Assembly: GCF_040529045.1 (NCBI RefSeq)
Contig: NZ_CP131914.1
Span: forward strand, 3,704,501 to 3,768,500
DNA from: Xanthomonas indica
GTDB lineage: Bacteria > Pseudomonadota > Gammaproteobacteria > Xanthomonadales > Xanthomonadaceae
Direction: 5' to 3'
DNA: 64,000 bases
The stretch's first letter is position 1; each line of letters opens with the position of its first letter. Below the pieces are notes generated by a model, which was given only the letters and a program-made list of their open reading frames with translations, was not told where the DNA came from and made no database searches. The translations under genes and the position numbers were made by a program. Positions 31,388-36,372 of this stretch are shown in pieces.

Positions 31388-31999
31388 CTACACGGCCCGC
31401 CATAGCAGGCGCAGGCCCAATCCGCTCATCAGCACCGCACTGAGCCGGTCCAGCGGCCGCCGCGCACGCATCCACCAGCGCCGAGGCGCCGGCGCGGACA
31501 ACGCCCCGGCCACGAGCGCGAACCAGGCCGCATCGGTGGCGAAGGCCAGCAGCGGCAGCGCGACATCGTCTTCCAGCACGCGCTGCGCTGGCAGCAGCGC
31601 GGCGAACAGGCCGGCGAACACCAGCGCGGTCTGCGGGTTGCCGAGTTGGGTCAACAAGCCCATGACGAAGGCCGAACGCACGGCCGGCACCTCCTGTGCC
31701 AACGCGACGGGCGGGGCCGGCGTTCGCCACGCCCGCCAGGCCAGCCACAGCAGATAGACGGCACCGGCAACCGACAGCGCACGGTGCAGCGCCGGCACCC
31801 GTTCCAGCACCGCCTGCAGGCCGAACAACGCCGCCAGCGCGAACAGGGCGCATCCCACGCCCATGCCCAGCGCCGCGGCGACCCCGGCCGCGCGCGAGCG
31901 TCCGGCGGCCAGCCGCGCCACCAGCAGGAAGCTTGCGCCGGGGCTGATCGCCCCCAGCAGCAGCACGCCTGCGATCGCCAGCAGGCTGGCAGCGGTCAT
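31388..31999 (-). CDS. LysE/RhtB-family amino-acid exporter
   Basis: A 203-residue inner-membrane protein with six hydrophobic segments starting LLAIAGVLLLGAISPGASFL, the LysE signature with PG near residue 21, and the second-half motif LLTQLGNPQTALVFAGL. Members export amino acids such as lysine, threonine or homoserine lactone. Its ATG overlaps the asnB stop (ATGA), so it is translationally coupled to asparagine synthetase and placed under the same attenuator; export of asparagine or a related amino acid is a reasonable inference but untested. Confidence 0.88.
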   Translation of the reverse strand: MTAASLLAIAGVLLLGAISPGASFLLVARLAAGRSRAAGVAAALGMGVGCALFALAALFGLQAVLERVPALHRALSVAGAVYLLWLAWRAWRTPAPPVALAQEVPAVRSAFVMGLLTQLGNPQTALVFAGLFAALLPAQRVLEDDVALPLLAFATDAAWFALVAGALSAPAPRRWWMRARRPLDRLSAVLMSGLGLRLLWRAV

Positions 32000-33687
32000 C
32001 CCAGTGCCTGCGCGTGCACCCCCGCCACCGCACGACCGGAGGGATCGGCCATGGCCGCGAAGCTGGCATCCCAGGCGATCGCCGCCGGCGAGGAACAGGC
32101 GATCGACTTGCCGCCGGGCACGGTCTCGGCCGCGGCCGGGGTCGGGAACACGCGCTCGAACAGGCTGCGGTAGTAATAGGCTTCCTTGGTCTGCGGCGGG
32201 TTCACCGGGAAGCGCTTGTCGGCCGCGGCCAGTTCGCGGTCGCTGACCTGGGCCTCGGCGTGCGCCTTCAGCCCGTCGATCCAGCCATAGCCGACGCCGT
32301 CGCTGAACTGCTCCTTCTGCCGCCACAGGATCGACTCGGGCAAGTAGCCCTCGAAGGCTTCGCGCAGCACCGCCTTCTCGATGCGCTTGCTGCCGTCGGC
32401 GCGGGTGCCGGCCATCTTGTACTGGGCATCCATGCGCATGGCCACGTCCAGGAACTCCACGTCCAGGAACGGCACGCGCGGCTCCACGCCCCAGGCCATC
32501 ATCGACTTGTTGGCGCGCAGGCAATCGTAGTTGTACAGCGCGTCGAGCTTGCGGATCAGTTCCTCGTGGAACTCGCGCGCGTTCGGCGCCTTGTGGAAGT
32601 ACAGGTAGCCGCCGAAGATCTCGTCGCTGCCTTCGCCGGACAGCACCATCTTCACGCCCATCGCCTTGATCCGCCGCGCCAGCAGGAACATCGGCGTGGA
32701 GGCGCGGATGGTGGTGACGTCGTAGGTCTCGATGTGCCGGATCACCTCCGGCAGCGCGTCCAGGCCTTCCTCGAAGGTGTACTCGAAGCCGTGATGCACG
32801 GTACCCAGGGCCTCGGCGGCGATCGCCGCGGCGGCCAGGTCCGGCGAGCCCTTCAGGCCGATCGCGAACGAGTGCAGGCGCGGCCACCAGGCCTCGGCCT
32901 CGTCGTTCTCCTCGATGCGCTTGCGCGCGAAGCGCGCGGCCACCGCCGCCACCAGCGACGAATCCAGCCCACCGGAGAGCAGCACGCCATACGGCACGTC
33001 GGTCATCAGTTGGCGGTGCACGGCGCGCTCGAAGGCCTCGCGCAGTTCCTGCTTGCCGACCTCCACGCCCTGCACTGCGGCGTAGTCGCGCCACGGCTTG
33101 CGGTAGTACTGCACGAGTTCGCCGCTGGCGCTGTCGTAGTAGTGGCCCGGCGGGAACTGGGCGACGTCGGCACAGCTGTCGGCCAGCGACTTCATCTCCG
33201 ACGCCACGCGCAGCCGGCCTTGCGCGTCATGGCCCCAGTACAGCGGGCACACGCCCATCGGATCGCGCGCGACCAGCACGCGGCCGGCGGCCTTGTCCCA
33301 CAGCGCGAAGGCGAAGATGCCGTTGAGGCGGTTCAGCAGCGCGTCCGGCGTGGTCTCGCGGTACAGCGCGTTGATCACCTCGCAGTCCGAGCCGGTCTGG
33401 AAGGCGTAGGGCTGGGCCAGTTGCTTCTTCAGTTCGCGATGGTTGTAGATCTCGCCGTTGACCGCCAGCGCCAGTTGCCCGTCGTCGGAGAGCAGCGGCT
33501 GCGAACCGCCGGCCGGATCGACGATGGCCAGGCGCTCGTGGACCAGGATCGCGCCGTCGTCGACATACACGCCGCTCCAGTCCGGACCGCGGTGGCGCTG
33601 CCGCTGCGAGCAGTCCAGCGCCTGCCGCCGCAGGGCCTGCAGGTCGTCGCCCGGTTGCAGGCCGAAGATGCCGAAGATCGAACACAT
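31996..33687 (-). CDS. asnB: asparagine synthetase B (glutamine-hydrolysing)
   Basis: A 563-residue enzyme making asparagine from aspartate, glutamine and ATP. Starting at 33687 the protein is MCSIFGIFGL, placing the glutaminase nucleophile at Cys2 after Met removal; the ATG follows AGGAG at 8 bp. The glutaminase domain has RHRGPDWSGVY, LAIVDPAGGSQPL and AVNGEIYNHRELKKQL; the synthetase domain has the PP-loop LLSGGLDSSLVAAVAARFAR and MVLSGEGSDEIFGGYLYFHK. Upstream lies an asparagine-rich leader ORF with terminator and antiterminator (33742-33900). Downstream lysE overlaps by 4 bp. Confidence 0.97.
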   Translation of the reverse strand: MCSIFGIFGLQPGDDLQALRRQALDCSQRQRHRGPDWSGVYVDDGAILVHERLAIVDPAGGSQPLLSDDGQLALAVNGEIYNHRELKKQLAQPYAFQTGSDCEVINALYRETTPDALLNRLNGIFAFALWDKAAGRVLVARDPMGVCPLYWGHDAQGRLRVASEMKSLADSCADVAQFPPGHYYDSASGELVQYYRKPWRDYAAVQGVEVGKQELREAFERAVHRQLMTDVPYGVLLSGGLDSSLVAAVAARFARKRIEENDEAEAWWPRLHSFAIGLKGSPDLAAAAIAAEALGTVHHGFEYTFEEGLDALPEVIRHIETYDVTTIRASTPMFLLARRIKAMGVKMVLSGEGSDEIFGGYLYFHKAPNAREFHEELIRKLDALYNYDCLRANKSMMAWGVEPRVPFLDVEFLDVAMRMDAQYKMAGTRADGSKRIEKAVLREAFEGYLPESILWRQKEQFSDGVGYGWIDGLKAHAEAQVSDRELAAADKRFPVNPPQTKEAYYYRSLFERVFPTPAAAETVPGGKSIACSSPAAIAWDASFAAMADPSGRAVAGVHAQALG

Positions 33688-33741
33688 GGGAAAGCTCCTG
33701 ATCGTGGGGTGGTGGTCGCGAGGGATGCACACTCCAGGCAC

Positions 33742-33772
33742 AAAAAAACCCGCATCGGCCGATGCGGGTTTT
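33742..33772 (-). terminator. attenuator terminator in the asnB leader
   Basis: Minus strand: perfect self-complementary arms AAAACCCGCATCGG (33772-33759) and CCGATGCGGGTTTT (33758-33745), in practice a 9-bp GC-rich stem closed by GGCC, running into seven T (33748-33742). It lies 54 bp before the asnB ATG, so it would block asnB unless prevented. It may also serve as the dapE terminator. Confidence 0.92.
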
Positions 33773-33804
33773 CTGGTGGCTGGGCGTGGTGTTTCTGGTA
33801 GCGC

Positions 33805-33900
33805 CTAGTCGCAGACCCGCATCGGCCGCGCACAATTATTCGCCAGCGCATGATTGCGGCCGTTGGCGTTGCTCGAGCGGAGGGCGGGCAGCGAGGTCAT
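33805..33900 (-). CDS. asn leader peptide
   Basis: A 31-codon ORF whose peptide reads MTSLPALRSSNANGRNHALA then NNCARPMRVCD, ending in TAG. Five of 31 residues are asparagine (positions 11, 13, 16, 21 and 22), three using AAT, a rare codon in such a GC-rich genome. It begins 38 bp after the dapE stop and ends 33 bp before the terminator stem. No strong Shine-Dalgarno precedes the ATG (GGTTACGGTCGCTGC), so it may be translated from read-through of dapE or as a nearly leaderless start from a promoter with TTGCAC. The role is control, not a product. Confidence 0.82.
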   Translation of the reverse strand: MTSLPALRSSNANGRNHALANNCARPMRVCD

Positions 33901-33938
33901 GCAGCGACCGTAACCCGCCGCGCGGGCCGGTGCAACTG

Positions 33939-35069
33939 TTACCGCAGCAACCGTTCGATCAGGCGCAGGTACAGATCCGGCAGCGCCTGCAGGTCGGCCA
34001 CGCGCACGTGCTCGTCGACCTGGTGGATGCTGGCGTTGACCGGGCCGACCTCGATGCACTGCGCGCCAAGCGGCGCGATGAAGCGTGCATCGGAGGTGCC
34101 GCCGCCGGTGCTCTCCTCCGGCGGCGCGCCGGCAACCTCCCCCAGCACCTCGCGCGCCACCCGGCGCAGCGTGCCTTCCGGCGTGTAGAACGGCTCGCCG
34201 CTGCGGTGCCAGCGCAGGTCGTAGTCCAGTCCATGGCGATCGAACAGGGCGGCGATCTCCGCCTCCAGCCGCGGCGCGTCCCAGTGCGGGGTGTAGCGCA
34301 GGTTGAAGGCGACCTGCAGCTCGCCGGGGATCACGTTGTTGGCGCCGGTGCCGGCGTGCACGTTGGAAATCTGCAGACTGGTCGGCGGGAAGCTTTCGTA
34401 GCCGTCGTCCCAGTGCCGCGCGACCAGGTCGGCCAGCGCCGGCGCGGCCAGGTGGATCGGGTTGCGCGCCTTGTGCGGATAGGCCACGTGCCCCTGCACG
34501 CCGCGCACGCGCAGCGCGCCGGAGAGGCTGCCACGGCGGCCGACCCGCAGCAGGTCGCCGAGCCGTTCGGTGGACGAGGGTTCGCCGGTGATGCACCAGT
34601 CGATGCGTTCGCCGCGCTCGGCGAACACGCGCGCCACGTGGCGCACGCCGTCGATCGCATCGCCTTCCTCGTCACTGGTCAGCAGCAGCGCCAGCGTGCC
34701 CGGGTGCTGCGGCTGCGCGGCCACGAATCGCTCGGCGGCGACCACGAACGCGGCCACGCTGCCCTTCATGTCGGCGGCGCCGCGTCCGTACAGCACGCCG
34801 TCGCGCATCTGCGGAACGAACGGATCGCTGGCCCAGGCCTCGCGCGGTCCCGGCGGCACCACGTCGGTATGCCCGAGCAGCGCCAGCACCGGACCGTCGC
34901 CGCCGCGGTGGGTCGCCCACAGGTTGTCGACCTGCCCGCAGCGCAACCGCTCGATGACGAAACCGGCGCGCTGCAGCCGCTGCGCAATCAGGTCCTGGCA
35001 CCCGGCATCCTCGGGGGTGACCGACGGGCGGGCGATCAGGTCGCAGGCGAGTTCAAGGACATCGGACAT
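33939..35069 (-). CDS. dapE: succinyl-diaminopimelate desuccinylase
   Basis: A 376-residue M20-family di-zinc amidase that releases LL-diaminopimelate and succinate in the lysine and peptidoglycan pathway. Metal-site motifs are present: [40 protein letters not shown] (catalytic Glu pair), [11 protein letters not shown] and the last ligand in [13 protein letters not shown]. Length is normal. dapD of the same pathway lies at 37529-38539 on the same strand. The asn leader begins just downstream, so dapE and asnB could share read-through transcription. Confidence 0.96.
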
Positions 35070-36043: not shown

Positions 36044-36372
36044 CGAAACATCCCTTCAAGCGAGGAAGCGTGGCTAACAACACGTTGCGAGCAGCCGACA
36101 GATGGCCGGGACGGCGCGCGCAGGAACCGGAGTGTACAAGTGCGTACATGATTCCGAGCACCCTCCCCGCTCGCCTGGCGGCTGCGCAGCAGATCCGTTA
36201 GCCGCTCCAAGCCCCTCTCTCATCGGGAGAGGGGTCGGGGTGAGGGTCGGTGCGCCGTGCTGCCATGGCACATGCAGACAGCCCGCGTTGCCTCACCGCC
36301 CGCGGACGCCATCGGTGCCGTTGCTGCAGTGAGACGGAGCGATCGGACAGCCACCTCTCGCTAGACCCCGCC
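36044..36372. repeat. gene-free gap with a CCCCTCTC/GAGAGGGG repeat
   Basis: In the 329 bp between the arsC-like gene and the lipoprotein gene, 36212-36234 holds an inverted repeat CCCCTCTC / GAGAGGGG with a TCATCGG-like centre, followed by GTCGGGGTGAGGG (to 36247). This motif is a widespread intergenic repeat in Xanthomonadaceae. Nothing else is recognisable in the gap. Confidence 0.6.

Follow-up and report, generated by a model that had tools for sequence, protein, structure and literature searches.

Organization of the asnB locus

The window analysed here is a stretch of 64,000 nucleotides (nt) of the Xanthomonas indica genome (contig NZ_CP131914.1, positions 3,704,501 to 3,768,500), and our subject is the short region on its minus strand that precedes asnB, the gene for a glutamine-hydrolysing asparagine synthase. 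Along that strand, dapE is followed by a predicted promoter, a leader open reading frame (ORF), an intrinsic terminator, asnB and a lysE-type exporter gene (Table 1). Judged from its sequence, the region is very probably a switch that turns asnB on when asparagine runs short.

Table 1. Features of the asnB leader region in window coordinates. SD, Shine-Dalgarno sequence.
Feature	Position	Strand	Basis
dapE, upstream gene	stop at 33939	-	gene order
Predicted -35 box of the leader promoter, TTGCAC, just past the dapE stop	33930..33935	-	read from sequence
Predicted -10 box, TACGGT, with its end 6 nt upstream of the leader ATG	33907..33912	-	sequence
Predicted 5' end of the transcript	at or next to 33900	-	
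Leader ORF of 31 codons, five of them for Asn	33805..33900	-	translation
Predicted sensing Asn codons 11 (AAC), 13 (AAC) and 16 (AAT)	33853..33870	-	Asn run also in relatives
Predicted sensing Asn codons 21-22 (AAT AAT)	33835..33840	-	pair widely conserved in family alignment
Segment 2, 5' arm of the antiterminator, in leader codons 25-29	33815..33828	-	exact repeat
Apical stem of the antiterminator, 5' side, GGCG, taking in the last base of the stop codon	33802..33805	-	fold
Apical stem of the antiterminator, 3' side, CGCC	33783..33786	-	fold
Segment 3, partner of segment 2 (antiterminator) or segment 4 (terminator)	33756..33769	-	complementarity
Segment 4, 3' arm of the terminator, same sequence as segment 2	33748..33761	-	exact repeat
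Seven T ending the intrinsic terminator	33742..33748	-	
SD of asnB, AGGAG	33695-33699	-	
asnB, regulated gene	31996..33687	-	NF006949, 878.7 bits (cut-off 499)
lysE-type exporter gene, overlapping the asnB stop; lineage-restricted neighbour	31388..31999	-	PF01810

Translation reproduced the Asn-rich ORF described in a first-pass annotation of this DNA, with Asn at codons 11, 13, 16, 21 and 22 and AAT at the last three; the product is MTSLPALRSSNANGRNHALANNCARPMRVCD. Among the 157 Met-started ORFs of 18-60 amino acids on both strands of the window, no other reaches its Asn share of 5/31. The same annotation had called AAT a rare codon, and the counts agree: AAT serves for three of the five leader Asn codons but for none in four neighbouring genes, whose 24 Asn codons are all AAC. 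As in other leader-peptide systems, the gene downstream makes the amino acid that the leader is predicted to sense.

Terminator and competing antiterminator

The leader and the terminator share an exact 14-nt repeat (segments 2 and 4, compared as plus-strand letters), and the leader copy is perfectly complementary to segment 3, the first arm of the terminator; both the repeat and the seven-T terminator are exactly as first claimed. An intrinsic terminator lies between leader and structural gene, and its hairpin occurs once in the genome. The predicted terminated RNA, from 33900 to 33742, is about 159 nt long. When a 166-nt RNA is folded to its minimum free energy, the segment 2 copy pairs with the first terminator arm and the GGCG/CGCC apical stem forms as well; the fold energy has a z of -2.26, with 4 of 200 shuffles folding equally well.

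Conservation of the leader in related bacteria

We compared 100 loci: the window, the 19 other genus genomes and, taken best first, 80 from a list of 130 further family matches. The asnB gene itself was found in all 20 genus genomes and in 351 of the 395 genomes of the family search. By a strict rule (four Asn in ten codons within an ORF of 12-60 codons, then a hairpin with a T run), 98 of the 100 loci qualify, as against 0 of 500 shuffled controls, and the two misses, L010 and L096, still carry leaders with four and five Asn. Asn accounts on average for 21.7% of leader residues in the 100 loci (lowest 12.9%), and for 0.4% in the five other frames (highest 6.7%), the enrichment in codons of the regulated amino acid that marks leader peptides. 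AAT makes up 324 of the 660 leader Asn codons.

The ORF is present in 37 of 43 named loci (L103-L145, AsnB identity 74-89%), partly from the same genomes as the genus and family sample, and ORF and terminator occur together in 35. To offset the best-first sampling, 32 further family genomes were queried, one per genus; DNA was obtained for 30, and 22 satisfy the strict rule. Locus L234 has no leader. Seven sampled genera of the family (L246-L252) have a diverged AsnB of 63-66% identity without a leader, possibly a case of gene replacement. At the level of the order, a search of 34 chosen genomes yielded an asnB in 18. Seven of these 18 loci have an Asn-cluster ORF, six with a terminator too, and all seven come from families f2 and f12, the latter being the Rhodanobacteraceae by its place among the named rows of the AsnB tree. 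No Asn-cluster ORF was found in the 11 order loci of five other families. Base-shuffled upstream regions produced the ORF 4 times in 1140 trials and the ORF with a terminator in none.

A wider gammaproteobacterial origin was rejected, with one qualifying locus (L178) among 37 distant named asnB loci; four more have an Asn-cluster ORF and no terminator. At L178 (positions 2013-2117), from a Rubrivirga metagenome-assembled genome, a small Asn-bearing ORF with a GTG start and a terminator precede asnB, which could reflect transfer, convergence or chance. The leader is absent at L116, L121 and L142, where asnB lies in records named as other phyla, through either transfer or misbinning.

A quick maximum-likelihood tree of 129 AsnB proteins contained one clade of 75 rows (Shimodaira-Hasegawa-like approximate likelihood ratio test, SH-aLRT, 97) that holds all 70 leader-labelled rows and includes both Lysobacteraceae and Rhodanobacteraceae; the labels follow a looser reading than the strict rule, and 5 changes are needed on the tree. 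The clade's five unlabelled rows comprise L164, which does carry an Asn-bearing leader-like ORF, L234, and three asnB whose records are named as other phyla. The distribution would fit one gain followed by a few losses or transfers, and the same predicted device is carried by related bacteria of at least three families. The first-pass annotation had named loss of the Asn codons or of complementarity, with the terminator kept, as the outcome that would speak against attenuation; in the 20 genus genomes and in many genera, all of these persist together.

Each of the 20 genus genomes has one strong match to model R1, at asnB, of at least 116.9 bits. Other matches, with 150 candidates scored per genome, reach at most 48.6 bits, and many are on the reverse strand or terminator-like. 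Further copies in the genome were rejected on this basis; a recurrent weak match is the ilvC leader described below.

Evidence for and against the alternative pairing

Pairing was counted over 93 aligned rows from closer family loci. The terminator is paired in 99.0% of cells, and the antiterminator with its apical stem in 87.8%, as against 30-40% with the partners slid. Both the changed cells of the antiterminator and its covariation score exceed shuffles (0 of 500 reach them). Alignment had been proposed at the outset as a check, with conserved Asn codons and compensatory changes expected. The Asn codons are conserved and five terminator pairs have changed on both sides, but the antiterminator pairs changed on both sides are not above shuffles, 88 of 500 reaching the number. 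When apical-stem partners were swapped within genera, the named loci being swapped among themselves, the stem was stronger with its own partner (-8.8 vs -8.1 kcal/mol, z -5.7, n=120). Leader and terminator arms also differ together between families: they are CGGCCGATGCGGGT-type in relatives of Xanthomonas, and in many Rhodanobacteraceae a TTGGCGGGCC-type leader arm occurs with GGCCCGCC terminators. The duplex of the segments is stronger with own than with swapped partners, at -20.5 vs -17.4 kcal/mol with relatedness uncontrolled.

By the rule used here a terminator is present in 138 of 140 leader loci. In these 138 loci segment 2 begins a median of 31 nt past the Asn codons (13-52 nt, 5-95%) and ends a median of 6 nt before the stop codon; it was located by best pairing, a placement that looks wrong in L131, L132 and L141. 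On spacing alone, a ribosome at the stop codon would cover segment 2 and one at the sensing codons would leave it free. With about 13-16 nt between the nearest Asn codons and segment 2, a ribosome stalled at those codons may overlie part of the segment.

Several observations weigh against a conserved antiterminator switch, besides the shortage of both-side changes already given. Three of the 18 antiterminator pairs are invariant, the apical stem is paired in 80.7% of cells and has an open innermost pair in 40 of 93 rows, and the RNAalifold covariation term is small (-0.62 kcal/mol, alignment A1). In the duplex swap, with relatedness uncontrolled, the own leader is the best partner in just 2 of 77 cases, at a median rank of 18. 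Because segment 2 is coding, part of its conservation could be driven by amino acids. By the rule used, the hairpins of the two leader loci outside the 138, L129 and L130, lack a U run. When the leader is folded alone, part of segment 2 pairs with upstream sequence in 132 of the 138 loci, but the arms differ and the energies are only modestly low (mean codon-shuffle z -1.5); with such differing arms and modest energies, a stable, conserved 1:2 pause stem was not established in these loci. Within these limits of swapping and covariation, a competing antiterminator built on leader sequence is conserved.

A predicted leaderless start

A promoter-like pattern, TTG[CAT]-N16..18-xAxxxT-N6/7-ATG, with the -10 box ending 6-7 nt before the ATG, was found at 99 of 100 leader starts and at none of 3090 other ATG or GTG in the same regions; the count of 99 is somewhat biased towards the pattern because leader starts were picked by promoter score, an upstream in-frame ATG being also present in 30 loci. 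An SD-like motif precedes asnB in 98 of the 100 loci and the leader in five. Since the box lies so close to the ATG and an SD-like motif is missing in 95 of the 100, a leaderless transcript starting at or next to the leader AUG is likely. A generic scanner reported no promoter and no terminator at the leader locus. We think that it may have missed them through the terminator stem running into the T run and through a promoter that is not a close sigma-70 consensus.

Proposed mechanism and alternatives

We are highly confident, from the elements, conservation and pairing just described, that an Asn-specific, ribosome-mediated transcription attenuator would account for the control of asnB, and the attenuation logic put forward in the first-pass annotation is supported on the same grounds. 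From these elements we infer stalling, termination and induction as follows. Polymerase would start at or next to the leader AUG, and the leader would be translated from a leaderless mRNA. With Asn-tRNA plentiful, the ribosome would reach the stop codon, whose end is 10 nt past segment 2; there it would cover segment 2 and the apical stem, and segments 3 and 4 would form the terminator. With Asn-tRNA scarce, the ribosome would stall in the Asn codons; segment 2, left uncovered, would pair with segment 3, and transcription would go on into asnB.

Gene content bears on the signal. The gene asnS, for asparaginyl-tRNA synthetase (AsnRS), was found in 21 of 21 relatives. In a sample of 13 genus genomes, the window's own included, neither gatB nor asnA was found; gatB was found in a few other families of the order. 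Given AsnRS and no GatB or AsnA, charged tRNA-Asn should report Asn made by AsnB, which should be the only internal source for charging tRNA-Asn in the genus. Asn-tRNA would therefore be a meaningful signal for asnB.

Three other explanations were weighed. The first is a trans-acting role, besides or instead of attenuation, for the short leaderless mRNA or for its peptide, as with rnTrpL/peTrpL of Sinorhizobium meliloti, whose AUG-first trpL RNA has trans roles according to the available text of PMC7298713. The predicted AUG-first terminated RNA would suit such a role. Against a conserved function of the peptide, its N-terminus and its length (20 to about 50 residues) vary freely while the Asn runs and the RNA arms are preserved; we regard this explanation as very unlikely.

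We give still less credence to a leader that senses Arg or the general state of translation. Arg makes up 18% of leader residues, a figure that also counts against Asn specificity, and leaderless translation may respond to initiation conditions. Yet many of the Arg codons are GC-rich and fall inside the RNA arms or next to them, the share of Asn exceeds that of the other frames about fifty-fold, and the target gene encodes the Asn synthase.

Least credible is that the element is the rho-independent terminator of dapE alone, the ORF and repeat being accidental: it does lie behind dapE on the same strand in the window, and the generic scan gave no promoter, but the Asn codons and segment 2 are kept together with the terminator, a separate promoter-like site precedes the leader, and dapE is upstream on the same strand in just 13 of the 43 named loci (flanks of at most 2.5 kb, four much shorter). 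Eight of the 43 have a divergent penicillin-acylase gene upstream and an Asn-bearing leader ORF nonetheless, so the element is more than a dapE terminator, and we rejected the dapE-only explanation on conservation, the promoter-like site and these neighbours.

The lysE neighbour

The first-pass annotation treated asnB and lysE as one regulated unit. The overlap at the asnB stop stands. A conserved unit was rejected, since lysE is seldom next to asnB in relatives: it follows asnB in 5 of the 19 other genus genomes, with partial matches in two (98 and 40 amino acids aligned), and in 1 of the 43 named loci, where the result was the same with or without a low-complexity filter. It is best regarded as a passenger of some lineages. 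If co-transcribed, lysE would be induced along with asnB, which would not be a conserved feature.

Relation to known attenuators

Leader-peptide attenuators of proteobacteria are familiar from the his, leu, ilv, thr, phe and trp operons. The Asn leader resembles them in its codon-rich short ORF, its mutually exclusive antiterminator and terminator, and the biosynthetic gene downstream; it differs in sensing Asn, as predicted, in being apparently leaderless, and in matching no Rfam family at cut-off. At the curated gathering cut-offs Rfam gave no match at the leader locus: Thr_leader (RF00506) scored 22.9 bits (cut-off 55) and Leu_leader (RF00512) 20.3 bits (cut-off 50), and both were rejected; no T-box riboswitch model matched there either. 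Nor was a known Rfam leader found in six related or ilvC loci. The three Rfam matches that reach the cut-off in the window lie away from the locus; they are the Xanthomonas sRNA family sX9 (36072-36149, minus strand, 65 bits, cut-off 44) and two tRNA genes of equal score on opposite strands (389-470, minus; 1375-1456, plus).

The trpL leader of the alphaproteobacterium S. meliloti is comparable in its 5' end. As far as the available text of PMC7298713 describes it, the leader ORF's ATG stands at the very start of the trpL RNA, as predicted for the Asn leader; unlike the Asn leader, this RNA senses Trp through a 14-amino-acid leader and is reported to yield a trans-acting RNA and peptide. In Streptomyces lividans, leader peptides precede amino-acid and aminoacyl-tRNA synthetase genes, and the available text of PMC8079986 states that two Leu, two Trp, Ilv and Thr leaders are leaderless transcripts, as predicted here; the amino acids concerned are Leu, Trp, Ala, Ile, Met and Thr, and asparagine (or asn) does not occur in that text. 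No Asn leader peptide is described in the full-text literature searched, which includes the available text of PMC3771888, PMC9413887, PMC2965389, PMC1262725, PMC5009743, PMC7298713 and PMC8079986; supplements and most subscription papers, among them the 2004 survey of proteobacterial attenuation cited in PMC1262725, lay outside its scope, and an earlier mention is possible. As far as searched, a leader-peptide attenuator of this amino-acid specificity would be new.

In the same genome, a leader ORF (MLQRHTRPKSTLQPAALRADAAASLLVLVLITSPTSAGRTGV) and a terminator precede ilvC, the ketol-acid reductoisomerase gene (L196:715-843; G000:C1:4412914-4413042). This leader has TTGACA, a GTGCGGG segment and a -10-like site whose end lies about 6 nt upstream of the ATG, and similar ilvC-type leaders occur in L197-L200 and L204. 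It has in common with the Asn leader an amino-acid run, the GTGCGGG segment, the terminator, TTGACA and the short distance to the ATG, and differs in its run of Leu, Ile and Val and in its target. It is possible, if on balance doubtful, that the attenuators of this lineage (Asn/asnB and branched-chain/ilvC) are leaderless by design, the switch reading ribosome initiation on a bare 5' AUG as well as the charging of one tRNA, and that the released AUG-first RNA may act in trans.

Biological meaning

If the proposed attenuator is real, asparagine is added to the amino acids sensed by leader-peptide attenuation, and asnB gains a directly testable control, in a group with plant-associated, clinical and environmental members. 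In the genus genomes examined, which have AsnRS and in which GatB and AsnA were not found, one simple loop would link free Asn, the charging of tRNA and expression of the synthase. The predicted leaderless start would also offer a clean natural system for the coupling of leaderless translation to transcription.
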